Positions 2,806 to 64,000 of a stretch of 64,000 nt of DNA are shown here, one piece after another (the first letter of the stretch is position 1; the number at the start of each line of letters is the position of its first letter). Source of the DNA: Planctomycetota bacterium (GTDB taxonomy: Bacteria > Planctomycetota > Planctomycetia > Planctomycetales > Planctomycetaceae); assembly GCA_027623235.1 (NCBI GenBank), contig JAQBVJ010000004.1, positions 1 through 64,000 on the forward strand. The letters are read 5' to 3'. The position numbers and the translations under genes were made by a program. The notes beneath the pieces were generated by a model. The model saw only the letters and a list, made by a program, of their open reading frames with translations, was not told where the DNA came from and searched no databases.

Positions 2806-4167
2806 ATGAAGAAATTTCTCCTCAACAACGGCTCGGTCGTCGTTCTGGTTCTGTTGTGCGTTTACTACAGCATCGTGACGATCGGCCGTCAGCACCCGGT
2901 GACTCCTGCCGCGGGCGAGGAAGTGGCACAGGCAATTCTCGCTGACACGAAGGCCCCGTCTGTCCTGATCGTCACTCGCGACACGGATCAGGATCGTGAG
3001 TTTGCCCGGGCTGTTCGCGCTGTCATCGAAGCCGGAGGCGGAACGATCGTCGATTCGGTTCATGGAATCGCAATTGATGCCGGGCGGGCGATCCGGACGG
3101 CAGGTGAGGCGGGCAAGCAGGTTGACGCCATCGCGACTCACCAACCGTCGTCCGAATGGGGACCGCTGAAAACAGAACGGCTTGAGGAATCCAGGAACGA
3201 ATTTCGGTCGCTTCGAGGCGTGAAGCTCTACAAGCCGGTGAGCTATGTGTGGCCGAGCTTTCTGACGCGGCCCAACCTGGTCAACGTCGTCAATCAAAAC
3301 GCGGACATCGCGATAATTGCCATCGGCATGACCCTGGTGATTATCACTGCGGGGATTGATCTCTCGGTCGGCAGTCTGGTTGCCGTCGCCGGTGTCGTCA
3401 CAGCGGTGACCATCCAGAAGTGGGCGGGCGGAGCGGACGCCGGAGCGGCGGGAATGATCGGTTGCAGCCTGATCGGCATTGGCGTCTGTCTGCTGTGTGG
3501 AGTCTTCAACGGAGTGATGGTGACGTATTTTCGTGTGCCGGCATTCGTGGTCACGCTGGGAATTATGATGGTCGCGCGAGGCGTCGCGCTGATCATCGCG
3601 GTGCAGTATCAGAGCTCTTTGCTTGGCGGGGGGACCAAGGGAACTCCGGAAGCGGTCAAAGTCGAGGCCATCGCCTGGCCCTGGCTTGGCAACGGGTCGA
3701 TTCTTGGCGTGCCGAATCCGATTCTGCTGATGCTGGTGCTTTATATCCTCGCCCATCTGGTCATGACGAGAACTTCGTTTGGGCGATACGTGTACGCGGT
3801 CGGCGGAAACCCCGAAGCGGCGAGGTTGTCGGGTGTGCCGGTCTTCGCTGTTCTGATTTCGGTGTACGCTCTTTGTGGAGCAATGGCCGGTCTCGCCGGA
3901 GTGATTGACGCGTCGCGGTTCGAGGGCGGGCGGCCGATTGCAGGAGACCTCTACGAGCTGAAAGTGATCGCCGCGGTTGTCGTCGGCGGGACAAGCCTGG
4001 CCGGTGGCGAGGGCCGGATTTTCGGAACACTGATCGGTGCGATGATCATCGCAGTCATCGAGAACGGCCTGAACATGGCCGGCGTGGCGAGTTATGAGCA
4101 GAAGATCGTGTTCGGCCTGCTGATCCTCGTCGCTGTGCTGCTCGATCGGCTGAAGGCTCGCGATTAG
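2806..4167 (+). CDS. Sugar ABC transporter permease (RbsC-like) with extra extracytoplasmic domain
   Basis: Inner-membrane permease of the ribose/xylose importer family (BPD_transp_2). After a first hydrophobic helix (about residues 10-27) there is an extra soluble stretch of about 120 residues, then the canonical permease core beginning SFLTRPNLVNVVNQNADIAI with the hallmark ITAGIDLSVGS and a later GRYVYAVGGNPEAARLSG loop. Total length is 453 residues against about 320-340 for typical RbsC. The inserted segment contains an alternating strand/helix pattern (APSVLIVTRDTDQDREFARA, then a KQVDAIAT strand) that resembles one lobe of a periplasmic binding protein. The start is the ATG at 2806; an overlapping GTG at 2803 is also possible. 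It is the last gene of the transporter group. Confidence 0.9.
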   Translation: MKKFLLNNGSVVVLVLLCVYYSIVTIGRQHPVTPAAGEEVAQAILADTKAPSVLIVTRDTDQDREFARAVRAVIEAGGGTIVDSVHGIAIDAGRAIRTAGEAGKQVDAIATHQPSSEWGPLKTERLEESRNEFRSLRGVKLYKPVSYVWPSFLTRPNLVNVVNQNADIAIIAIGMTLVIITAGIDLSVGSLVAVAGVVTAVTIQKWAGGADAGAAGMIGCSLIGIGVCLLCGVFNGVMVTYFRVPAFVVTLGIMMVARGVALIIAVQYQSSLLGGGTKGTPEAVKVEAIAWPWLGNGSILGVPNPILLMLVLYILAHLVMTRTSFGRYVYAVGGNPEAARLSGVPVFAVLISVYALCGAMAGLAGVIDASRFEGGRPIAGDLYELKVIAAVVVGGTSLAGGEGRIFGTLIGAMIIAVIENGLNMAGVASYEQKIVFGLLILVAVLLDRLKARD

Positions 4168-4177
4168 ACGCGTTGTC

Positions 4178-4262
4178 GCAGGGTGGGGCGAACGCGGCGA
4201 GGCGCGCCGATCCTGCCTTCCTCAGGACGATGGTGGGGCTCGCTTTGCTCGGCCCACCCTAC
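4178..4262. repeat. Imperfect inverted repeat (GGTGGGCC type) between convergent genes
   Basis: GCAGGGTGGGG at 4178-4188 faces GGCCCACCCTAC at 4251-4262, bounding a GC-rich interval. It lies between the convergent permease and UvrA-like genes. The right arm supplies the TAG stop codon of the UvrA-like gene (4259-4261). It looks like a dispersed intergenic palindrome; copy number elsewhere cannot be seen here. Confidence 0.55.
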
Positions 4263-37792: not shown

Positions 37793-40700
37793 TCAGATCT
37801 CACCACGCGAGCTCTCATTTTCGGTCGTGACGGGTTCGCCGTTTCCGTAGCGGTCCTGGTCTTTCATGTACTTGCGATATTTGTCTTCAAACCTGTTCTG
37901 GTTCACGGAGCGTTTGCCGCCGGCTTTGCGGAGCGAGTGGATTCGCTGCCAGCCGAGGAAGTTTCGCAGCAGTTGAATAATTGCGACGACACCGATCACG
38001 ACGGCCGCCCAGCCGCACGTGACCCACAAAGCCTGCGGCGATTCCTGAGTCAGATAGGCTCCCCCCATGCCAAGCGAGATGCAGGCCAGCGTGCCGTCCA
38101 TCCACATTTGCCGACGCAGTTTCTGCTGCGAGTGTGTTGCCAGAGCGCTTCGCGCGGATTCGTTCGCCACTTCACGAAGCTCTGTCATCGCGAGTCGCCG
38201 GGCCAGCGTTCGAGTCTCGCTCGGACGCCGGTCGTCGTCGGCTTCGTTGCCGGTGCGATACTTGGCTCGGTCGACGACAGGGCCGGTCGGAGCGGCTTCT
38301 TTCGCCCAGGCAGGCAGTTCCTGCTCGGCTGGCTCGTCGATGGTGTGCGGGTCGTCCGATTCAGCTTCGTCCGCAACATCGGCGCTGTTGGATGCAGCAT
38401 TCGTAATGGCATCGGCCTGGGACTCTTCGGAAGCGAGGCTTTCCGTATCCTCGATTTCGTCGGGTTGTGTTTCCACCTTTTTCGGTGCCCGCTTAATGCC
38501 AAACATCGAGGCCAGCATTCCGCGGAAAGCCTGCAACTGCTTGTCTTCATCGTTGCCCGCCTCACGAGCCTTGTTTGCGAGCTCGACGACAGACACCGCG
38601 TCTTTTTCAGAGCGGACTTTGGATTTCTTCGGCAAAGTTGGCTCTTCCGCGAGCCCGTCCTCCGTTCGGTCAGTATCCGTGTCGCTAGAGTCTGCCGGGC
38701 TGAACCGGGCATCGTCCGACGAATCTTCCAGCGAGACTTCGTCAGCGATTTGTGTGAGTTGAGGTGGCACTTTGGCAGGTACGTCAAGGTCCTCTTCAGC
38801 AAAGTCGACATCGTCCACAAGGTCGCCGAAGTCGATGTCCGCTCCCGTCTCTCGATCGGAAAGGCTGTTGAGAGTTGCAAGGAATCGTTCCTGCTCCTGG
38901 CTGAGCTGTGCCTGGACATGGTTGAACTGCTGAGCCATTGCCGCGAGCTGTTCGCGTTCGATGTTTCGTGCCCGGCGTTCGTAATCGAGTTCGTCGAGGG
39001 CCAGCTGCAGACGGTCCTTCAAGCTGTCGTCGTCGCCCGCCGCGGCGAGCTGGTTTGTGAGGTGCTCCTGTCGTGTATCCAGCTCGGTTCGCTCGTGCAG
39101 CAGCCGTTCCAGTCTGCCCGTCATGACGCTGACCTGACTGGCGAGTCCTTCGCGGGTTGCCTGCAGCGACTTCGTGACTCCTTTAACTTCCGTCTCGCGG
39201 CGGGCAATCGTGCGTTGTCGACCGGCGAGTCGGTGCCTCTCGGCCGCCAGCTGATCCCGCATCTGCTGCAGCTGAGTCTGTCCGCCGGCGAACCGTGATT
39301 CCAGTTCGCGCAGTTGAGATCGGTCCTGTTCGCGGGCCTGTCGTTCGGCCTGCAATTCAAGAATCGCCCGCTCCAGCCGCTGGGCGAGCCCCTGAGCCTG
39401 CTGGCTGACCTCGTTGTTGTCGGACGCCAGTTTTTCCCGCTCGGTATCGATCCAGTTTCGGTCGCTCTTCAACTGCTGGCGGGTTGTCCCGAGTTGCGTG
39501 AACTGCGACCGGATCGTCTCGTCCTCAAGGGCAAGTTCTTCCCGGGCCCTTGTCAGTTCCATGTCCTTCTGAGCGAGTGCCCGTTCGAGTGACGCGAGTC
39601 GGTCTTCGCGAGCGGAAACGCCGAGCCGGTATGTCTGAAGTTTCTCGCCATCCTGAGCGTACCGGGCGCGAAGCTGGCTGACTTCGACCTGCTCGCTGGC
39701 AAGCTGCTGTTCCATGTTCGCAATTCGGTGCCGGTCGCTGTCCCGTTCGGTCCGTTCTGCTTTCAGTTCGGCAAGAGCTGATTCCAGCCGCGCGGTCAGT
39801 TCCGCCTGGGCTTCTGTCGGCTCGGCATCGCCCGTCATGATCTGCTGCTCAAGTTCGGCGACGCGAGCCCGTTCCGCGTCGCGTCGTTCACGCTCGACTT
39901 TGAGCTCGGCCATCGCCGACTCAAGTTGAGTGGTGAGATCTTTTTCCCGCACGGCGAGCGTCGTTGACTTTTCGGCGATCTCGACCTTGACGGACTCGAC
40001 CGTGTGTCGCTCGTCGCGCAGCTCGGCGTGTTCCTGATTGAGTTCTTCCATCCGCAGCGAGAGTGCTTCGCGGTCTTCGTTGAGAGCCGCCTTCGCCGCA
40101 ACGAGCTGCGATTCCAGCAGTTCCAGTTTCCGCCGGACGGATTCGACCTGCTGTCGATCGGCGGTGACGTCCGCTTTTTCGGTCTGAACTCGGGCGAGGT
40201 CCGCTTCAATCCGCGATTTCTGGGCCTCGAGTTTTGCGTACTGCGATTCGACTTTCGCCTGCTCCAGCGCGAGCCGTGCCCGCTCGGCGGACACCTCGCT
40301 GCGCTCACTTTCCACTTCGTGGCGAGCGGCTGTCAGTTCTGTTTGGGCCGCTTCGAACTTTTCCCGCTCGTCGCCGAACAGCTCACGCTCACACTCAAGC
40401 TCCTCGCGGGCCGATGTCAGCTCACGCTCTGCTTCGTCGAAGCACTCCCTGTCCGCTTCCAGTTTCTGTTTGTCGGTGGCGAGTTGAGCTTCGCGAATCT
40501 CCAGGTCCTCGCGAGCTGCGTTGAGCTCTTCGGTTTCCAGTTCGAGAAACTCGCGGTCTTCCTTGAGCTGCTTTTCGCGGCCCTCCAGTTCCGTCGCGAG
40601 TTTCTGAAGCTGCTGTTCCTCTTCCGCGATCTGCGCGGCCTGCTGTTCGAGCTGTGCCTGTTCGTCTTCAGCTTCGAGCCGGGTCGCTTCGAGAGACTGT

Positions 40701-43700
40701 TGCTCGGCTTCGAGCTTTCCAAACTCTTCGGCCAGCTGCTCCTGACGCGCGGTCAGCTCGGCCCACTCCGAATCGAGCTGCGTGCGTTCCTCACCGAGGG
40801 CGGCGACAGCGACTTCGTGAGTCGCCTGTTCATCGAAGAACGTCTCTCGGTCGTGGTCCAGTGCCTGTCGCGTTTCTGAAAGTTCGGTGAGCGAAGATGC
40901 CAGTTCCTGTTCCCGTGACTGAACTTCTCGCAGCCGCTCGGTGCAGCCTTCTTCAAGCTGCTCCCGTTCGATCCGCAGCTCGTCCCGTGCAGCGGCAAGT
41001 TGCTCCTGCTGAGCATCGAGTGTCTCGCGGCGTGTCGCGATTTCCTGAAGGTCTTTGTGAAACTGCTCGGAACGGGCGGCCTGTTCTTCTTCCAGACCGG
41101 CTCGACTGGCCGAGAGTTCTGCCCGGGTCGTTTCGATTTCTTCACGAAGGCCAGCCAGGGCCGCCCGCTCTTCCCGCATCGACTCGGCTTCCGCGGCGAG
41201 CTCTTCCCGCTCCCGGCCGGCCGCCTCCCGGTCGTCGTCGATCGCTCGCTGAGCGACCTCGACGACTTCCTCGCGCGATTCCAGATCGCTGAGTGTTCTG
41301 TGGAGTTCTTCTTCTCTGGCGGCGATCGACTTCTCGTCTTCTGTCAGACGGCCGAGCTTCTCGTCAAACTCGTCGTTCTTCGCCGTCCAGTTGGCTTCAA
41401 GCTGCTCAAGCGACATCTGTCGATCGCGAAGGTCCTCCAGCTGAGCATCAAACTCGCCGCGCTCGTTGATGAGCGATTCCCGCTCGGCCGCAAGCCGGTT
41501 CTGTGTCTCTTCGAGTTCGGCCCGTTCCTGCTGCAGCGCGAACTGTTCGAGTCGAGCCGATTCTTTTCCGGCTTCGATTCCGGACAGCTCGGTTTCAAAC
41601 TGCCGTTGCTCTTCTTCGAGCAGGGCGGCTTTTTTTTCGAGGTCCGCTTCCTTCTCGCGAAGTTCTGCCTGAGCCTCCCGCAGCTGTGCGCGGTTGAGTT
41701 CGAGCCGCTCGCGGTCGTGCTTGAGCGACGCGTGGTATTCGTCGAGGGCCGTCTGCGCAGTTCCGTATGCGTGCGATTTTTCATCCAGTTTCGAGCGTTC
41801 CGAAGCGATGTCTGAGAGTTTCTTTTCGAAGCCCGCCTGCTGGCTCTGCAGTTCTTCCCGTTCGACGGCAATGGCCGCTTCCAGACCTGCGAGTGACTCA
41901 CGCTGAGTTTCGACTTCCGCTCGCGCCGCTTCCAGCTGGCGTCGCAGTTCGTCAAGACTGTCCTGTTCGCCCTGGCAATGGGCGAGGTGAACGGTGAGCT
42001 CACTTCGCTCGTCGGCCAACTGCAGTTCCTTCGCTTCGATCCGGTCTTCAAGTTCAGCCAGACGTTGCCGCTCGGCAGTCAGATCGGCTCGTTCTGAGTC
42101 GAATCGAGACTGATCGATCGTCAGCTGGTCGGCCTGTTCCTGCAGGTCGATGCGGAGCTTCGCCACTTCAGCACAGTCTTCCTGGAGTTTCAGCTGCCCC
42201 TGTGTCAGTTCTGCCTGGGCGAATTCCAGATCGCCTTCCGTCATCGACGTTTGCGCAAACAGTTCGGCGAGTGCGTCCCGCTGTCGCCGGAGTTCCTGCT
42301 GTTCGTCCTGAATTCTTTCTTCCGCCAGGCTGATTTGACTCCGCAGCTCCGTCAGTTCTTTTTCGTTGGATTCCAGTTGTGCTTCGCGGTCCCGCAACTG
42401 CTCCTGTGCGACGCGGCTGCTTTCTTCGAACTCACGCAGCTTCGCTTCGAGGTCTCCCTGTGACGAGTGTGTTCGCGACTCAAAAACGGTTCGCGATTCC
42501 TCGAACTCGCGACGAGCGGCTTCCAGTTCCCGCTGCTGCTCTTCCAGCGACTGCTCGAGTTCGGACGCCCACTCGATCCGGTGGCGGAGGGAGTCGTTAG
42601 TCGAGTCCAGTTCCGCCTGCTGTTCGGCGACGGCCGCCTCGCGCTCGGCGATTGTCGACTCGAGCTGCTCGCGCTGCGCGTCGAGTCGGGCCTGAGCCGC
42701 CACGAGTGCCTCGTTCCGACCAGCGACTTCTTCGCGAAGTGCCTCAAGCTCACCGCGATCACCGTTGATCTCCTCTTCACGCTGCTGGAGTTGTTCCTCA
42801 CGCGCGGCGAGGTCGGACTTCTGCTGCTGCAGCTTCGTTTCCAGATCAAGAACCCACCGTTCCTGTGTGGTCGTGTCGAGAGTCTTTTTCTCGATGCGGC
42901 TTTGCTCGCTGAGGACGTTCTTTTCCCGCGCGGCCAGTTCCTGCGTCCGTTTTGCAATGAACTCTTCTTTGCGGGCGGCTTCGGTCAGTCGTGCCTCAAG
43001 CGACGTTCGCTGGTTCTCCAGCTCGTCCTGCCACTGAGCGATGTCTGCTTGATAGCGGTCTACCTGCGCCCGGAGGTGTACCTCACGTTCGCGCAGCGAG
43101 TCGGCGAGCTGGCGGAGCTGTTCTTCCTGCGAAGCGTGATCGGCAGAGGCGGTTTCAAACCCCTCGCCGCTTTCCTGCAGATGCCGGCGTTGCCGTTCGA
43201 CGTCAGCCTGCTGTCGCTTGAGGCTTTCCTCGCGCTCGCGCAGACGGCGTTCCCGCTCGTCGATGTCCTGTCGCCGCGTGTCGATGTCGACTCCGCCACG
43301 GGCCGCGGATTTCTCGCGTTGTTCGGTCTCGTGAAGTCGTTGTCGCAGTTCGTCCCGTTCCCGCTCGACGCGCTCCTGGAGTTTCTGCAGCTCACTTCGT
43401 TCCGCGTCGAGCAGCATTCGCGCGGCGGCGAGTTCACTGTCGCCCCACTGGCCACCGTTCGCTGTGAGTTCACCCTTCAGACGCTCGAGCGTTTCTCGCT
43501 GGGCGTCCAGTTCCTTCTGCCGTTCGTAAAGATCCCGGCGAGCGACGTCGGACTGCTCCTGTCGTTCGCGATACTGCGACTGAAGTTGCTCGTGCTCCCG
43601 CTGTCGCTGCAGAATCTCGCTCTGCTGCCGTTCCAGTTCCCGCTCTCGCTCGGCGAGTGCGGACTGTCGTTCTTCGACGGCCTGCTGCTGTTCGGCAAGC

Positions 43701-44377
43701 TCTCTGCGTTCTTCATCCAGCGAATCCTCTTCGGCGAGCTTGCGAAGTTGCGCGTCGAGTTCGTTGGCGGCAGCGGTCGAGCTGTCTTCACCGTTCCCAG
43801 TCAGGTACTGAAGTTTCTGGTCGAGCTGTTCGAACTTCGAATTGAGCTCGTCTTCGCGTTCACGCAGCGTCAGCTCTCGCGACTGAAGCTCAGCCGCTTC
43901 CCTGGCGAGCCGTTCCTGACGTTCGGAAAGCTCTGCCTGCTGGTAACGCAAGGCATCGGCGGCTTCCGCATCGAGCTCGGCCGAATCCCCATCGTTGCCG
44001 AAGGGGAGAGACTGTTCGATTTCTTCCGCGGTGGCCATGCGGAATCGGAACTCAGCCGGGCCGACGGCCAGCCGGTCGTTTTCCATGAGCTCAAGCGGGT
44101 CCCGAACCGGCCGGTCGTTGAGCCAGGTCTGCTCTCCGAATTCCTTGAGGATGGTGCTGTTCGGACCGGACATGATCAGGCAGTGCTGAGGAAGAATCCC
44201 CTGGGCACGGACCGTCAGTGTGCAGGCCCGGGACGAACCGATCGAGCACTGCGTTCCTGGCGGAAGCAGAATGGAGTGCCGGCCGTGGTGCTGCTGGACG
44301 GGCTCGATGACGAGCACTTCCCGCACCGGGCGGAGAGAACGGACGGAAGGACGCAAGTTCTGTGACGACTCACTCAT
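37793..44377 (-). CDS. Giant FHA-domain coiled-coil membrane protein
   Basis: A 2194-residue protein. Residues about 20-130 form an FHA domain (REVLVIEPVQQHHGRHSILL, CSIGSSRACTLTV, ILPQHCLIM, TWLNDRPV). Residues about 150-1850 are almost continuous heptad coiled coil, dominated by Glu, Leu, Gln, Arg and Ala. An acidic Ser/Asp/Glu-rich stretch follows (about 1850-2040). The end carries two hydrophobic helices (GTLACISLGMGGAYL and WVTCGWAAVVIGVVAIIQLL), then a basic tail. There is no Walker motif, so it is not an SMC/Rad50 ATPase. The ATG at 44377 begins MSESSQNLRP; a TTG at 44476 would extend it by 33 residues. It could tether a phosphothreonine-dependent assembly to the membrane through a very long rod; a structural role is inference. 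Confidence 0.9.
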   Translation of the reverse strand: MSESSQNLRPSVRSLRPVREVLVIEPVQQHHGRHSILLPPGTQCSIGSSRACTLTVRAQGILPQHCLIMSGPNSTILKEFGEQTWLNDRPVRDPLELMENDRLAVGPAEFRFRMATAEEIEQSLPFGNDGDSAELDAEAADALRYQQAELSERQERLAREAAELQSRELTLREREDELNSKFEQLDQKLQYLTGNGEDSSTAAANELDAQLRKLAEEDSLDEERRELAEQQQAVEERQSALAERERELERQQSEILQRQREHEQLQSQYRERQEQSDVARRDLYERQKELDAQRETLERLKGELTANGGQWGDSELAAARMLLDAERSELQKLQERVERERDELRQRLHETEQREKSAARGGVDIDTRRQDIDERERRLREREESLKRQQADVERQRRHLQESGEGFETASADHASQEEQLRQLADSLREREVHLRAQVDRYQADIAQWQDELENQRTSLEARLTEAARKEEFIAKRTQELAAREKNVLSEQSRIEKKTLDTTTQERWVLDLETKLQQQKSDLAAREEQLQQREEEINGDRGELEALREEVAGRNEALVAAQARLDAQREQLESTIAEREAAVAEQQAELDSTNDSLRHRIEWASELEQSLEEQQRELEAARREFEESRTVFESRTHSSQGDLEAKLREFEESSRVAQEQLRDREAQLESNEKELTELRSQISLAEERIQDEQQELRRQRDALAELFAQTSMTEGDLEFAQAELTQGQLKLQEDCAEVAKLRIDLQEQADQLTIDQSRFDSERADLTAERQRLAELEDRIEAKELQLADERSELTVHLAHCQGEQDSLDELRRQLEAARAEVETQRESLAGLEAAIAVEREELQSQQAGFEKKLSDIASERSKLDEKSHAYGTAQTALDEYHASLKHDRERLELNRAQLREAQAELREKEADLEKKAALLEEEQRQFETELSGIEAGKESARLEQFALQQERAELEETQNRLAAERESLINERGEFDAQLEDLRDRQMSLEQLEANWTAKNDEFDEKLGRLTEDEKSIAAREEELHRTLSDLESREEVVEVAQRAIDDDREAAGREREELAAEAESMREERAALAGLREEIETTRAELSASRAGLEEEQAARSEQFHKDLQEIATRRETLDAQQEQLAAARDELRIEREQLEEGCTERLREVQSREQELASSLTELSETRQALDHDRETFFDEQATHEVAVAALGEERTQLDSEWAELTARQEQLAEEFGKLEAEQQSLEATRLEAEDEQAQLEQQAAQIAEEEQQLQKLATELEGREKQLKEDREFLELETEELNAAREDLEIREAQLATDKQKLEADRECFDEAERELTSAREELECERELFGDEREKFEAAQTELTAARHEVESERSEVSAERARLALEQAKVESQYAKLEAQKSRIEADLARVQTEKADVTADRQQVESVRRKLELLESQLVAAKAALNEDREALSLRMEELNQEHAELRDERHTVESVKVEIAEKSTTLAVREKDLTTQLESAMAELKVERERRDAERARVAELEQQIMTGDAEPTEAQAELTARLESALAELKAERTERDSDRHRIANMEQQLASEQVEVSQLRARYAQDGEKLQTYRLGVSAREDRLASLERALAQKDMELTRAREELALEDETIRSQFTQLGTTRQQLKSDRNWIDTEREKLASDNNEVSQQAQGLAQRLERAILELQAERQAREQDRSQLRELESRFAGGQTQLQQMRDQLAAERHRLAGRQRTIARRETEVKGVTKSLQATREGLASQVSVMTGRLERLLHERTELDTRQEHLTNQLAAAGDDDSLKDRLQLALDELDYERRARNIEREQLAAMAQQFNHVQAQLSQEQERFLATLNSLSDRETGADIDFGDLVDDVDFAEEDLDVPAKVPPQLTQIADEVSLEDSSDDARFSPADSSDTDTDRTEDGLAEEPTLPKKSKVRSEKDAVSVVELANKAREAGNDEDKQLQAFRGMLASMFGIKRAPKKVETQPDEIEDTESLASEESQADAITNAASNSADVADEAESDDPHTIDEPAEQELPAWAKEAAPTGPVVDRAKYRTGNEADDDRRPSETRTLARRLAMTELREVANESARSALATHSQQKLRRQMWMDGTLACISLGMGGAYLTQESPQALWVTCGWAAVVIGVVAIIQLLRNFLGWQRIHSLRKAGGKRSVNQNRFEDKYRKYMKDQDRYGNGEPVTTENESSRGEI

Positions 44378-44705: not shown

Positions 44706-45416
44706 CTACTCTTCAGCGTCGTCGCTGTAGAGCAGACGGCCGCACATTCGGCAGCGGATGACTTTTCCGACTCGCAGTTCGAGCTGGTGCTGCGGCGACA
44801 GTTCCGTGAAGCACTCGGTGCAGGCGGTTTCGTCCGCAACGGCAATTGCACCCGGTCCGTAGGCCTGAACGAGCCGGCGGTAGTCGTCGCCAAACTTGGA
44901 CGGAATGCAGATTTCCGCTGCCGAGACCTCTTTGGCCAGTTCGTCAATAGCCACCTGGAGGCCCGCTTCTGCAGCTTTGACTTCGATGGCGATTTCTTTG
45001 GCGAGTCGGGTGGCTACTTCGAGCTCACCTTCCAGGATTTTGTTCTTTTCCCTGGCTGCATCGACCTGTTCGAGCAGTTCCAGATACTCATCTTCCAGCA
45101 CCGCGTTCGCTGCCGAGTCGGCCTCGATCTGCCCTTTGAAGATGTCAAACTCGCGGTTGGATGCGGCCGCGTTGAGCTTGCCTTTGAGTTCGTTGATCTT
45201 CTGCTCGTTGGTTCGGAACTGCAGATTTTTGTCGTCAGCGGCTTTCTGAATATTCTTGATGCAGTTCTTCTGTTCGGCGATTTCAGCCAGCTTCTTTTTG
45301 CAGATTCCCTCGCGGAGCGCAATTTTTCGAGGTCCAGCTTCCAGTTCCGACTGCTTCTTGTGCAGCCGCTCGTGGAGAAGGTGGAGGTCTTTCAGGCCTC
45401 CTGTCGTTGGACTCAT
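44706..45416 (-). CDS. Coiled-coil protein with C4 zinc ribbon (DUF164/CdsZ-like)
   Basis: A 236-residue protein. Residues 5-180 form a long antiparallel coiled-coil hairpin (LHERLHKKQSELEAGPRKI, NREFDIFKGQIEADSAANAV, LVATRLAKEIAIEVKAAEAG-like ATRLAKEIAIEVKA). The C-terminus is a zinc ribbon with CTECFTELSP and VIRCRMCGRLLY. The architecture matches the C4-type zinc-ribbon family that includes CdsZ and RNA- or ribosome-associated proteins. ATG 45416 is chosen with CGGAG upstream. It is upstream of, and collinear with, the giant coiled-coil gene. Confidence 0.9.
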   Translation of the reverse strand: MSPTTGGLKDLHLLHERLHKKQSELEAGPRKIALREGICKKKLAEIAEQKNCIKNIQKAADDKNLQFRTNEQKINELKGKLNAAASNREFDIFKGQIEADSAANAVLEDEYLELLEQVDAAREKNKILEGELEVATRLAKEIAIEVKAAEAGLQVAIDELAKEVSAAEICIPSKFGDDYRRLVQAYGPGAIAVADETACTECFTELSPQHQLELRVGKVIRCRMCGRLLYSDDAEE

Positions 45417-45652
45417 AGCAGGCTCCGGGTGGAAGCGGGGACGCGGTGCGGACAGAAGACGGAGCATACGTCATCGCGAGCGACGATGCGAGCAGCCAAA
45501 GGGCGGGAACGGAGCGACGTTGTCGATCGGAACAGGAGTCGAGTCTGTCAGGGTTGAAGTCCAGGCACCGGTGGCGTTGAATTGTCGATCCCCGTTTTAT
45601 GGCGGACAACTCCGGTCACCCAAAGGCCGATTCCAACTCGAAAGGAAGTTCG

Positions 45653-46861: not shown

Positions 46862-46936
46862 CAGCTCAATAAGAAATTGCCGCGGGGTGGGTACGAACAG
46901 GAGTTCATCCGCGCGGAAAACTCAAAGCGACAACAA

Positions 46937-47614
46937 ATGAAGTCTCTGACATTTCAGGTTCTGGAAGGGATGGAGCGCGGCCGCGTTCTCGAAAACCTCT
47001 TTCCCCCGATCACAATCGGCCGGGAAGAGGACAACGGGATCCAGCTCAACGACGAAAGGGTGAGTCGTTTCCACGCGAAAGTGCAGGAAGACGGCGGCCG
47101 GATCATCCTGACTGACCTCGAAAGCACCAACGGAACCCGGGTCAACGGGCACCCTGTGCAGATGCACGTGTTGCGGATCGGTGATCAGGTTTCGATCGGG
47201 CGTTGTCTGCTTCTGTACGGCAGTGCCGTTGAGATCGAAGAGCGAATCAAAGCCCGGCGACCTGCTGACCTGAAGGCCAACGGGAACGCAACGGTCGAGT
47301 CCGGTTCAGATTTCGACTTTCTCGATGCGGCCAGCCGAGACGACGATGAAGAACTGCCTCGTCTCTTTCCTGACGGCGCTCCCGAGATTCCTGACGAACT
47401 GCGGCCAGTCCAGGTGGCTCAGTTGGCGGACCTGCTGGCCCACATTCACGATCGGTTGCGGTCTGTCGTCACGGCGGGTCGAGTGGCCAGCGAGGGTGGA
47501 GAAATGCCGCCTTACGAACTGGACTGGGTTGCCTGGCAGCGGGCTCTGCAGCTCGAAATGAACGTGGCCGAGTATTTGCGGAGTCTGACCAATCCGGCAG
47601 CTGACGCCGATTAG
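46937..47614 (+). CDS. Small FHA-domain protein
   Basis: A 225-residue cytoplasmic protein. Residues about 3-95 form an FHA domain with the phosphothreonine-binding residues in place: IGRE (Gly28-Arg29), RVSRFHA (Ser43, Arg44, His46) and ESTNGTRVNG (Asn65-Gly66, Asn70). The C-terminal half is acidic then helical (QVAQLADLLAHIHDRLRSVV, QRALQLEMNVAEYLRSLTNP), with no recognised domain. The ATG at 46937 starts the domain closely but lacks a Shine-Dalgarno; an in-frame TTG at 46877 is an alternative. It probably forms a unit with the receiver upstream. Confidence 0.9.
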   Translation: MKSLTFQVLEGMERGRVLENLFPPITIGREEDNGIQLNDERVSRFHAKVQEDGGRIILTDLESTNGTRVNGHPVQMHVLRIGDQVSIGRCLLLYGSAVEIEERIKARRPADLKANGNATVESGSDFDFLDAASRDDDEELPRLFPDGAPEIPDELRPVQVAQLADLLAHIHDRLRSVVTAGRVASEGGEMPPYELDWVAWQRALQLEMNVAEYLRSLTNPAADAD

Positions 47615-60529: not shown

Positions 60530-63500
60530 TTAGACGGCCCTGCTGGTCCAGTCGCGGGCAATGTGGGTTAGATCCGGCTCGTCCCCCGATCGATCGAAAA
60601 AGTAGTACTGCTCGAGGCGGTTGATTGTCCCGGAAAGTTCCGTCGTTCGATCCGGATTCAGTCCATTGTTGGACTCGATGTCCTTCAGCAGGCCGATGAC
60701 CGTAAACGGAGTGACTTCGTTCGGCATCTTGAATCGGCGGGCGACCACCAGCGTTTTTGGTTTGCTCAGTTGGAAATAGACCAGGAGGAGGGCGACGGCC
60801 ACAACGATCCCCCCTCCAAGAAACAACGGCCACGTCGATGCTGGTTCTCCGTATTGCTGTTCGAGCAAAATGACGGCTTCGACGCTGTCGAGGTCTGCAT
60901 CGACGTATCGTTGATGTTCGACCTGTGCGTCAGCGATGAGTGATTCACCAAACTGAAATTCTTCTGGATGCTCCTTGAGGTCTTTTTTTGCTTCAAGGTT
61001 CACCAGAAAGTTTCGTTCAGACACGATGGCGTTCTCATCACTTTCCTTGTCGAACTGAGACACCGACGCGCCTTCGTCGTCGATACTGACGACGTCGAAT
61101 TCTGCTGGAGCCACTTGAAGCAGTTTGTCGAGGGAAGGGATCAGGCCACGGCCTGTTACTTTCACTTCGAGGACGAGCTTCCCCTCGCCCGCCTGTCGTT
61201 CATCGAGTGTCTGAGTAATCGATACATTGCTGATGGGGCGGGGATCTGCCTGACTGGTTTTTGCGTCGATCGGAACAGGCGAAGTCTCGACGGGAAGGAC
61301 CGCATAGCCGGAAGTGTCGAGGAAATCCAGGTCCAGGCGGACGGGTGGCAGCGTGTCGATTTCGGGTCCCCGTGCCTTCACCAGAAGGTACGCGTAGGGA
61401 GTCATTCGCCAGCCGACCTGCGAAGTGGCTCTGGAATTAACATCTTCTCGCTGGAATGTGACGGACAGGACTTCAAAGTGTTCGTCCAGCGCGGCGACAC
61501 AGGCCTCTTCGAATTTGTCCCGATAGTTCTCTGTAGGACGTCCGTAGTTGTAGGCGTAGTATCTGTTGTTTTGATTCTGCAGGTACTTGGAGAAACCACC
61601 GGCTTCCCGCTCAATTTCCTTCGTGTGGTTAATGTTGATGAAGACGCCAAACGGCTCTTTGTGGCCGACAACGTCGCTGCCATCGATGACCGCCTGCAAC
61701 TCGATTTCCGTGACGAGGTCGTTGTAGTACTCCAGGACTTTGCGTGCTTCGTCGGCCCGTTTGTTGTCCTGAACGATTTCGAAGCCAGCCCGCAGGAACC
61801 GGAATTTGACCGCGGCGTTGACTGCGCTGAGCCGTGTGAAGAGCGAGTTCGCGAACATGTCCATATGTCGTTCGGCGAGTTCGCCCGGCAGCGCGATGAT
61901 TGCTTCGCGGATCAATGCAATCTCTTTCAGGTCTGGCTGAGACTCCGGCTTGATCTGGCCGACGTCGCTCGCACCAAGACTCGCGTAGAACCACGACTCA
62001 AAGACGCTGACATTCTGCTTGTCCTCGTCGAGGTCCATTGCGGCTTTTGCGTAGAGGTCTGCCGCTGTGCGGTACTCGGCAACGGCGACTCGCCGACGGG
62101 CAGAGTACTCCGAGCTGTTTTCCAGTTCGTTGTAGTACTCATTCTCGTCAAACGCCATGGCCGCTTTGGCGAGCTGCAATGACCAGTGGTCCGGGTACGT
62201 CTCCATGCCCTTCCGCAGGACGTGGTTGGCGACGGTGTAGCCGCGTTCGACCTCGGCCTGAACGTCTTTCTGTTTACGGTTTGTGTTCGAGTCCTTCTGG
62301 GTCTCTGGTAGCCGCCAGACGCCTGCGAGATTCTGTCGCATTTTCTGGATGAGCTGTGCGAGCGTCGCCGGCTTCAGTTTGTCCAGCGAACCGAAAACGC
62401 GTTCGATATTCTCAAGCCGATAAACCTCAGCCGTTCCGTGAGTATTCGTGAATGCGTTTGTCAGGACGGTTTCGTCAATATCCTCAATGGGGATATCCCG
62501 CAGCCGCTTCAGCCAGCCAGCGAGTTCTGTCAGGTTTCGTTCCTGCTTGGATCGTGTCAGCGGAATTCCCTGAGCTCGTTGATTGAAGCCCCACGAAAAC
62601 ATGTAATAGCTGGTGCGGCGACGGCTGGAGTTTGGATCGTGGTTCGTCGTCCAGACTCGCAGAAATTCCTCGGCGAGGTCCTTCGCGACTTCCGGATGTG
62701 TCTTCGCGATCTCCTCGATATAGGGGAACGCTTTGTCTTCTTCCTGCACCTTCAAATAGAGCTGAGGCAGAATCGTGCGGAAGCGGGGTTTGAGCGGCTC
62801 GTCAACGACCTCAAGCCATTTGCCTTCCGGTTTCAATTCGAGAAGCTTGCCTGTGCTCACCGCACTCGGTGTCCGCGACGACGAATTCGACATGTTCTGC
62901 TGGAAACCTTCTGCCCCGTAAAAATAGTTGCCATAAATGTCGCGCTGCATCATTGGCTGTCTGCTGGTTGAGGCGTCATAGCTTCGGGAATGTTCCGCCT
63001 CGACGAGCCAGTTTCTTGCGAGCAGGTTGAGGGTTTGCGACCACTCTTCGGCTCGTTCCGGAGCGGCATTGAGCAAGGCGTTCACGGCGGTGTGTTGCAG
63101 CTCAAGTCCCCTGGCTCGCTCATCGGGAATCGAGGCCTGCCTGACGAGTCCGGTTGACACCGCGGAGCCGATCGTCGCGAGAAGTTCCATGCCACGCTCG
63201 GGACGCGTTGTGAAACTCTCTGCGAGCCAGGCAGTCCCGAGTTCTTCGCGAATCTTTGGAGCCAGTTCGACGGCGCGGGCGAGGGCCTCCTGTTTCTGCT
63301 CATCCGTGATCTCGCCAGCGGCGAGGGCTGCCTGTGTGACTTCCCAGGCCTGTTCCAGGAATTCGATTTTCTTTTCGGCCTGATGTTTCGCGAGGAAGTA
63401 CTTTGCGAGCAGGTTGAGGCCATCCCGGTCTGTCACCTCGATGGCCTTTTCAGGAGTCGGCAGGAATTCGCCAGCTTTCAGGATCTGCCCCGCACCGATA

Positions 63501-64000
63501 AGAAGTTGTGCGATTGTCTGCCCATTGAGTCGTGGCTTCCCGCCGCCTTCTTCGCCCGTCGCTGCCTTGGATGCCTTCGCTGCATCGCGAAACCGTTCAA
63601 TGAATTTGTTGATGTCGTTTCCGGATGCGATCGAAATTCGCAGTGTCGCGCCGATTCCAGGGAGCACCGTCTTGTCGAGCTCGTGCGGGCAGGCATCGAC
63701 CACTGCGAAGACATCGTCGACAGAGAAGACCGGCTTCTCGGCAAACTGCACCATCTGTGGGGGAACCCCCTGCGGTGGAGCCTGAAGTCCGATGAGCATT
63801 TTCAGGTAAGCGGCCTTGCCTTCATCCTCGGCCAGCTCCTTCAGGAAGCTTGATGCGGCGTCCCAGTTGCTCAGAGTGACGTCTCGTTGAAACGCTGCCA
63901 GCTGAAGGTCGAACTCTTTCAGTTTCTCAGCGTTCGGGTCTGGCGGCGTGGCTGGTGTTTCCGGAGTTGCCTCAGCCGGCTGTGTTTCAGCGGATTCCGC
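60530..64000 (-). CDS. Very large membrane-anchored protein, unknown function (partial)
   Basis: The frame is open to the right edge of the window, so the N-terminus is missing; at least 1157 residues are present. The visible N-part is a Pro/Ala/Thr/Glu-rich linker, followed by a helical scaffold with many short alpha-hairpins (AEKKIEFLEQAWEVTQAALA, TAADLYAKAAMDLDEDKQNV) resembling TPR-type solenoids. A domain near the end (PVRLDLDFLDTSGYAVLPVE, GKLVLEVKVTGRGLIPSLDK) is beta-rich. One transmembrane helix (WPLFLGGGIVVAVALLLVYF) precedes a cytoplasmic tail of about 85 residues. If exported it would be mostly periplasmic with a C-terminal anchor. No catalytic motif was recognised. Confidence 0.8.
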   Translation of the reverse strand, partial: AESAETQPAEATPETPATPPDPNAEKLKEFDLQLAAFQRDVTLSNWDAASSFLKELAEDEGKAAYLKMLIGLQAPPQGVPPQMVQFAEKPVFSVDDVFAVVDACPHELDKTVLPGIGATLRISIASGNDINKFIERFRDAAKASKAATGEEGGGKPRLNGQTIAQLLIGAGQILKAGEFLPTPEKAIEVTDRDGLNLLAKYFLAKHQAEKKIEFLEQAWEVTQAALAAGEITDEQKQEALARAVELAPKIREELGTAWLAESFTTRPERGMELLATIGSAVSTGLVRQASIPDERARGLELQHTAVNALLNAAPERAEEWSQTLNLLARNWLVEAEHSRSYDASTSRQPMMQRDIYGNYFYGAEGFQQNMSNSSSRTPSAVSTGKLLELKPEGKWLEVVDEPLKPRFRTILPQLYLKVQEEDKAFPYIEEIAKTHPEVAKDLAEEFLRVWTTNHDPNSSRRRTSYYMFSWGFNQRAQGIPLTRSKQERNLTELAGWLKRLRDIPIEDIDETVLTNAFTNTHGTAEVYRLENIERVFGSLDKLKPATLAQLIQKMRQNLAGVWRLPETQKDSNTNRKQKDVQAEVERGYTVANHVLRKGMETYPDHWSLQLAKAAMAFDENEYYNELENSSEYSARRRVAVAEYRTAADLYAKAAMDLDEDKQNVSVFESWFYASLGASDVGQIKPESQPDLKEIALIREAIIALPGELAERHMDMFANSLFTRLSAVNAAVKFRFLRAGFEIVQDNKRADEARKVLEYYNDLVTEIELQAVIDGSDVVGHKEPFGVFININHTKEIEREAGGFSKYLQNQNNRYYAYNYGRPTENYRDKFEEACVAALDEHFEVLSVTFQREDVNSRATSQVGWRMTPYAYLLVKARGPEIDTLPPVRLDLDFLDTSGYAVLPVETSPVPIDAKTSQADPRPISNVSITQTLDERQAGEGKLVLEVKVTGRGLIPSLDKLLQVAPAEFDVVSIDDEGASVSQFDKESDENAIVSERNFLVNLEAKKDLKEHPEEFQFGESLIADAQVEHQRYVDADLDSVEAVILLEQQYGEPASTWPLFLGGGIVVAVALLLVYFQLSKPKTLVVARRFKMPNEVTPFTVIGLLKDIESNNGLNPDRTTELSGTINRLEQYYFFDRSGDEPDLTHIARDWTSRAV

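Follow-up and report, generated by a model that had tools for sequence, protein, structure and literature searches.

A Giant Single-Stripe Heptad-Rod Protein with a Pseudo-FHA Head and a Hairpin Membrane Anchor in Planctomycetia: A Candidate Cytoplasmic Tether or Scaffold

Introduction

Golgins that carry a C-terminal transmembrane (TM) segment, namely giantin, golgin-84, and CASP, combine a long cytoplasmic coil with a C-terminal membrane anchor, and most golgins bind via their far N-terminal end (PMC6611411). SLMAP joins an N-terminal FHA domain, a coiled coil, and a C-terminal membrane anchor (PMC2712456). Bacteria possess cytoplasmic segmented coiled-coil rods in the intermediate-filament-like proteins crescentin and FilP (PMC2680258), and FHA folds with a degenerate site are found in YscD, PrgH, and CdsD, membrane proteins of type III secretion (PMC3635987). 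Here we describe a 2194-residue protein, hereafter the rod protein, that is encoded on the reverse strand of a 64,000-nucleotide stretch of DNA (hereafter the window) from a Planctomycetota bacterium of the Planctomycetaceae (GenBank assembly GCA_027623235.1, contig JAQBVJ010000004.1, positions 1 to 64,000), and that may serve as a membrane-anchored tether or scaffold in the cytoplasm.

In Planctomycetes, deep membrane invagination, budding, and, in many species, division without FtsZ together pose an open question for which few candidate genes are at hand. As far as we could find, the rod family is apparently unstudied so far, as it was not described in the titles and abstracts listed for open-licence papers on FHA domains with coiled coils in Planctomycetes, on giant proteins, on coiled coils in Gimesia, and on planctomycete cytoskeletal elements. 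The architecture of the protein is well supported, and its function is what we infer from that architecture.

Coding Sequence and Overall Architecture

37793..44377, reverse strand: complete coding sequence of 2194 residues, with an ATG start whose position is conserved among homologues

The open reading frame (ORF) runs from an ATG at 44377 to a stop at 37793, and conservation of the start is indicated by the FHA core, which begins at residue index 45 also in the homologues of other genera (L043, L044, and L120-L123). Between the homologues L120 and L123, divergence at codon positions 1, 2, and 3 is 0.16, 0.09, and 0.51, respectively, so the DNA evolves as coding sequence and the protein is under purifying selection. 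From the N- to the C-terminus, an FHA fold (residues 45-106) is followed by a heptad rod (residues 137-1844), an acidic linker, and a membrane hairpin of two helices. A preliminary description made from the letters of the window had placed the ORF and read an FHA domain, about 1700 residues of heptads, an acidic region, and two TM helices, and every part of this layout was confirmed. It had also stated that no annotated family fits, which holds: outside the FHA domain Pfam gave no match, NCBIfam gave sub-threshold coil matches only, the C-terminal signature and the hairpin match no family in the libraries searched, and a search of the whole 2194-residue protein against the PDB found no match. 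Large antisense ORFs over the gene (for example 42467-44365 on the forward strand) look like by-products of coil composition and were set aside.

The Head: an FHA Fold without the Phosphothreonine Site

44009..44338, reverse strand: pseudo-FHA head, residues 14-123, with IGS for IGR, LPQH for SRxH, and EQTWLN for NGTxxN
44060-44245, reverse strand: Pfam FHA core (PF00498), residues 45-106

Membership of the head in the FHA superfamily is supported by a profile match and by the predicted fold. PF00498 matches residues 45-106 with 26.7 bits against a cutoff of 20.7 (32.9 bits in a genome scan), and AlphaFold2, run with 28 homologues, predicts a beta sandwich with a pLDDT of 92. With this model, the best Foldseek matches in the PDB are all FHA domains, headed by 3gqs (CT664/CdsD of Chlamydia), while the head profile finds its best PDB sequence match in 3po8, the mycobacterial FhaA (E 1.6e-11), and the YscD-type FHA family PF16697 matches 28 of 28 family heads.

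The residues that would bind phosphothreonine (pThr) are a different matter. Binding of pThr by an FHA domain is associated with conserved Gly40, Arg41, Ser55, His58, and Asn76 in MupFHA (PMC4238996), and in an alignment of 28 family heads only the Gly and the His are kept throughout (28/28 each). The pThr-contact Arg is kept in none (Ser or Ala stands there in 28/28), the Ser in 2/28, and the Asn in 0/28, so that the head does not answer to the description of a pThr-binding FHA domain; the family instead shares a conserved TWLN loop and an HC pair. This loss is a trait of the rod family and not of the genome, since a 245-residue FHA protein in the same window (46877-47614, forward strand), upstream of the nuo gene cluster, keeps the canonical IGR, SRFH, and NGT. 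PrgH has a comparably degraded site, where mutation of the corresponding residues had no effect and pThr binding was judged unlikely by the authors (PMC3635987). On account of the family-wide loss of Arg, Ser, and Asn and of this precedent, we name the head pseudo-FHA.

These residues bear directly on the idea, put forward in the preliminary description, that the FHA domain binds phosphothreonine. In such a signaling scaffold, comparable to SLMAP in STRIPAK, the head would bind a kinase substrate in a pThr-dependent manner, and both the FHA fold and the 36 FHA domain matches in the genome would suit it. However, the contact residues have been replaced here and throughout the family, and a kinase-like neighbor cluster, recognized by eye, occurs in 6 loci only and at inconsistent places, making this explanation very improbable. 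Judged from its sequence, the head most likely binds its partners independently of phosphorylation.

The Rod: One Hydrophobic Stripe over 1708 Residues

38846..43969, reverse strand: single-stripe heptad rod, residues 137-1844 (1708 residues), from periodicity and register model
39038..40480, reverse strand: most conserved part of the rod, residues 1300-1780, with 46-64% identity to other genera in 100-residue blocks
Register breaks in the rod: near residues 199, 218, 314, 436, 576, 645, 1101, 1143, 1483, 1531, 1668, and 1784

The extent and registers of the rod were derived from a 7-state register hidden Markov model (HMM) fitted to the sequence of this protein alone. Mean local power at a period of 3.5 is 4.78 in the rod, compared to 1.01 +/- 0.14 in block shuffles, autocorrelation is 2.7 at lag 7 and still 2.4 at lag 35 (five heptads), and a single proline occurs in the 1708 residues, compared to an expectation of about 81. 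Disorder in place of a coil, which the preliminary description had named as an outcome that would speak against it, thus finds no support in the rod. In the register fit, one heptad position is 90% I/L/V/M/F/W/Y, whereas the i+3 and i+4 positions are 13-14%, and Arg, Gln, or Glu predominate at i+4. By the same fit, the SMC protein encoded in this genome shows two stripes, with 47-70% at both. The one-stripe pattern recurs in 13 other members fitted, which have 54-94% at the main position and clearly less elsewhere. The rod therefore lacks the two hydrophobic positions per heptad of a canonical a/d coiled coil, but is a coiled coil in the wide sense of a long heptad periodicity whose phase is kept in evolution, and is probably a self-associating coiled coil of an unusual one-stripe type. 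Fully helical and straight, it would measure 1708 x 0.1485 nm = 254 nm, which makes the span of over 200 nm suggested earlier a possible one.

Three other accounts of the repeat were considered and rejected. A single alpha-helix (ER/K) rod is disfavored by the Leu at each seventh residue, and E-R/K pairs from i to i+4 exceed their expected number of 50 only slightly, with 56 and 64; tandem DNA repeats underlying the rod amount to a single 2-copy 21-bp match. Homology to SMC/Rad50, by which the protein would be a chromosome-associated, SMC-like or DNA-binding coil, could be read from the NCBIfam SMC matches in the coil, yet these lie far under threshold (92.7 bits against a cutoff of 567) and reflect coil composition. 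ATPase heads and a hinge are absent, a real SMC is encoded in the same genome at C20, and the heptad type is unlike that of this SMC, so that this explanation can hardly be credited.

Evolution of the Rod in Heptad Steps

Four homologues of full length, belonging to two other genera (L044, L120, L122, and L123), show 42-45% identity to the rod protein over the rod and are free of insertions and deletions (indels) from about residue 308 to 1780, that is, over some 1470 residues. Small indels of 1-3 residues at 196, 214, 308, and 1781 adjoin the HMM-placed breaks at 199, 218, 314, and 1784, and rod indels in other relatives are mostly 7, 14, or 21 residues long. One homologue, L043 (G030:C83), lacks 436 rod residues in total, and although two alignments place the loss differently, it is in phase in both; full-length L120 and L123 of the same genus retain the whole rod. 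Proteins of the window clade are 2194-2272 residues long, except L043 with 1826. Exceptions to the heptad step are mainly members of g26 (L045 and L121), in which some gaps look compensating and the alignment is uncertain, and the fragment homologues L172 and L173 were left out of the rod alignments, which were meaningless for them because their longest ORF is apparently not the gene. As indels are mostly whole heptads and the small ones fall at register breaks, the pattern may be read as selection that keeps the register unbroken and, in the window clade, also the length nearly constant. The rod, which has a single hydrophobic stripe where two would be usual, is a natural example of evolution largely by whole heptads. 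In L045 (G025:C127), the head lies in a separate 252-residue frame (3896-4213) ahead of a 1767-residue frame for rod plus anchor, which is either an assembly error or a real break.

A rod that is continuous, regular, and negatively charged, and that conserves its register, is also what one would expect of an intermediate-filament-like cytoskeleton, in which rods pack laterally and end to end, and the resulting filament bundles, attached to the membrane, give the cell or its invaginations their shape. A strain of the Planctomycetaceae (Calycomorphotria) contains thick bundles of filaments, putatively cytoskeletal, by which cavities of the membrane appear to be filled (PMC7716856), and filament formation is common among bacterial rod-domain proteins, FilP and others (PMC2680258). 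On the other hand, a membrane anchor and a globular head are unusual for such proteins, whose definition by Bagchi et al. excludes TM segments (PMC2680258), and self-assembly of the rod lacks support in the sequence data. This is the main rival to a tether or scaffold, and we regard it as possible but rather unlikely.

The Acidic Linker and the Membrane Hairpin

38240..38845, reverse strand: acidic linker, residues 1845-2046, with 53 D/E and 20 K/R
38495..38530, reverse strand: short motif AFRGMLASMFGI, residues 1950-1961, seen by eye, counterpart of the membrane-near family motif LRxxLAxMFxx
37919..38221, reverse strand: C-terminal membrane module, residues 2053-2153, comprising a helix with LREVANESARSALATH (residues 2067-2082), TM1, a turn, TM2, and a basic tail helix
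Hydrophobic helices of the module: TM1, about residues 2091-2109; TM2, about residues 2116-2137

The family signature LREVANxSARxAxA lies in the last 150 residues and is followed by the two hydrophobic helices, for which AlphaFold2 predicts, with a pLDDT of 85, two long helices folded back as a hairpin. The rod protein showed no signal peptide in a reading by eye, and the hairpin is bordered by basic residues at either outer side, with a short loop between the helices; for these reasons both ends of the anchor probably face the cytoplasm. The same module, LREVAN signature and hairpin, also ends proteins without an FHA domain, at L048:6033-8762 (reverse strand, G022) and L040:5849-8638 (reverse strand, G036). 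These start with a signal peptide, continue with an ectodomain of cadherin repeats (found by Pfam in L048, PF00028 with E 5e-49, and recognized by eye in L040), cross the membrane at an internal TM segment, and pass through an acidic stretch in the cytoplasm before they reach the signature and the hairpin. This order requires the hairpin to be entered from the cytoplasm in the cadherin proteins too.

Ahead of LREVAN, at a distance of about 20-350 residues and amid acidic low-complexity sequence, the family loci carry two short linker motifs, conserved and cytoplasmic, LRxxLAxMFxx and DxSIxxYMxxLLxRxR, the latter missing from the long-rod clade of the window. The two motifs are likely sites of partner binding.

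Distribution

The anchor profile matches 128 of the 170 Planctomycetaceae genomes, in 52 of 58 genera and usually once each. In a phylum-wide sample its strong matches were confined to members of the Planctomycetaceae, but the head profile and a reading of 14 loci outside this family showed that other families of the class share this layout, namely a GS-type head, a coil, DxxIxxYMxxLLxR in many, LRxLANxSARxAI, and hydrophobic helices. The planctomycete context in which the preliminary description had set the protein holds, and the rod family is near-universal in the Planctomycetaceae and extends to other families of the class. Sampled members range from 561 to 2272 residues. The genome of the window encodes a second one of 970 residues (G000:C231, L039:5810-8797, reverse strand), pseudo-FHA, acidic, and largely rod-free, which carries the motif DNPDSIxxYMxxLLARNR, and close relatives (g26, g31, and g43) mostly possess two copies of the anchor module too.

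Gene Neighborhood

Operon A-B, examples: G000:C39:42483-45318; L060:5286-8071; L036:5526-8374

In 14 of 51 loci compared, the rod gene is divergent to an adjacent pair of genes, A and B, and by coordinates this arrangement is found in 40 genomes of 15 genera, as well as in L160 of another family. At its N-terminus, protein A has a zinc-ribbon-like motif of four cysteines (C.CG ... C..C, then LPxxxYP); a basic linker leads from there to a single TM segment and an extracytoplasmic domain. Pfam gave no match for protein A. Protein B carries a signal peptide, is helical in its middle part, and shows the pattern GMxxxxVxxxLGxP ... WxYG in its C-terminal region, and Pfam gave a BamE match far below the cutoff in one of the two members scanned. 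A and B were found in 159 and 160, respectively, of the 170 Planctomycetaceae genomes. The preliminary description had proposed a search of the neighborhood for Ser/Thr kinases; no conserved one was found, and the consistent neighbors elsewhere are this zinc-ribbon membrane protein and this secreted protein.

The divergent linkage to a membrane protein and to a secreted protein, for which one of the two members scanned gave a weak BamE-like match below the threshold, may also point to an envelope-spanning complex, loosely like YscD/PrgH, in which the rod protein would be the inner-membrane part, together with A and B, and the rod a spacer recruiting cytoplasmic components. The resemblance of the head to the FHA domain of CT664/CdsD, in structure (3gqs) and in its PF16697 matches, fits this proposal. 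Nevertheless, unlike YscD, the rod protein has no periplasmic domain after its TM helices, but only a short loop, and A and B occur in nearly all genomes of the family, including some without a detected rod gene, so we consider such a complex improbable.

Genes close to the rod gene in the window (a cytochrome c-like protein, a zinc-ribbon coil, a 3-keto-disaccharide hydrolase, and nuo genes) were rejected as a functional clue because they are not conserved beside it: none of seven neighbors tested was found near the rod gene in related loci, those of the closest relatives included. Among them, a gene at 44706-45467 (reverse strand), upstream of the rod gene and on the same strand, encodes a small protein with a coiled coil and, at the C-terminus, a C4 zinc ribbon (its PF02591 match falls narrowly short of the cutoff) and is likewise not conserved there elsewhere. 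A 1089-residue ORF without a Pfam match lies at 60530-63799 (reverse strand).

A Proposed Role

An anchor at one end, a binding head at the other, an in-register spacer between them, and a wide, mostly single-copy distribution are most economically explained by a tether or scaffold, cytoplasmic, anchored in the membrane, and similar to a golgin or SLMAP, with a head that acts independently of phosphorylation. The chances that this reading is correct seem to us about even. It retains the tether or scaffold of the preliminary description, still the best reading, and abandons its phosphothreonine premise. The LREVAN helix and the two-helix hairpin would lie in the cytoplasmic membrane and have both their ends on the cytoplasmic side, a flexible spacer would be provided by the acidic linker, and the rod would project inwards by up to about 250 nm, possibly as a dimer. 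The pseudo-FHA head, and likewise the conserved stretch of the rod near the membrane, may then hold partner proteins without need of phosphorylation, by which another membrane surface, the nucleoid edge, a filament, or an envelope complex would be tethered or spaced relative to the membrane, and in many relatives the protein probably acts together with A and B, which are encoded divergently to it.

Several points weigh against a tether or scaffold of this kind. Measured against canonical a/d coiled coils, a heptad with one stripe is weak, so that stable dimerization is not certain, and whole proteins vary widely in length (561-2272 residues), so that a fixed reach cannot be general. In the genome of the window itself, A and B lie on another contig, C39, and not beside the rod gene.

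As a candidate for the open question raised by planctomycete cells, the rod family is of the right kind, having a membrane anchor, a very long reach, a binding head, a mostly single-copy occurrence, and a conserved neighbor pair. It is tempting to speculate, although only tentatively, on a rod system shared across the Planctomycetia, in which a one-stripe rod selected for its phase (and in the window clade also for its length), together with a pseudo-FHA head and an anchor of a new kind, the LREVAN hairpin, would act with A and B and so organize the cytoplasmic membrane with its invaginations or the bundles taken to be cytoskeletal.

Relation to Described Systems

Compared to crescentin and FilP, the rod protein has a membrane anchor, an FHA-like head, a one-stripe heptad, and a far greater length, and with its FHA domain and TM helices it falls outside the survey definition of intermediate-filament-like proteins as rods without TM segments or known domains (PMC2680258). 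YscD continues from its TM segment into a periplasmic region that builds a ring, whereas the rod protein has a giant rod and a terminal hairpin; its head alone matches PF16697 and its chain ends in the hairpin and a short basic tail, unlike an inner-ring component of a YscD/PrgH type III secretion system. Mycobacterial FhaA (TB39.8), the best PDB sequence match of the head profile, differs in keeping GR, SRRH, and NGT. To our knowledge, FhaA has no rod or hairpin.

SLMAP is much shorter than the rod protein, and its FHA domain is canonical and pThr-binding. It is also eukaryotic, with a tail anchor in place of a two-helix hairpin, and the rod protein, in which the pThr site is absent and the anchor is a hairpin, agrees with it in architecture while standing outside its class. 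The golgins are likewise eukaryotic and have a single C-terminal TM segment, not a hairpin, and no FHA head; no homology of the rod protein to them was found, and here too the architecture agrees, as in an analogue. Homology is not claimed for either, but in the way they appear to work, the golgins with a C-terminal TM segment and SLMAP would be the nearest analogues of this planctomycete rod.

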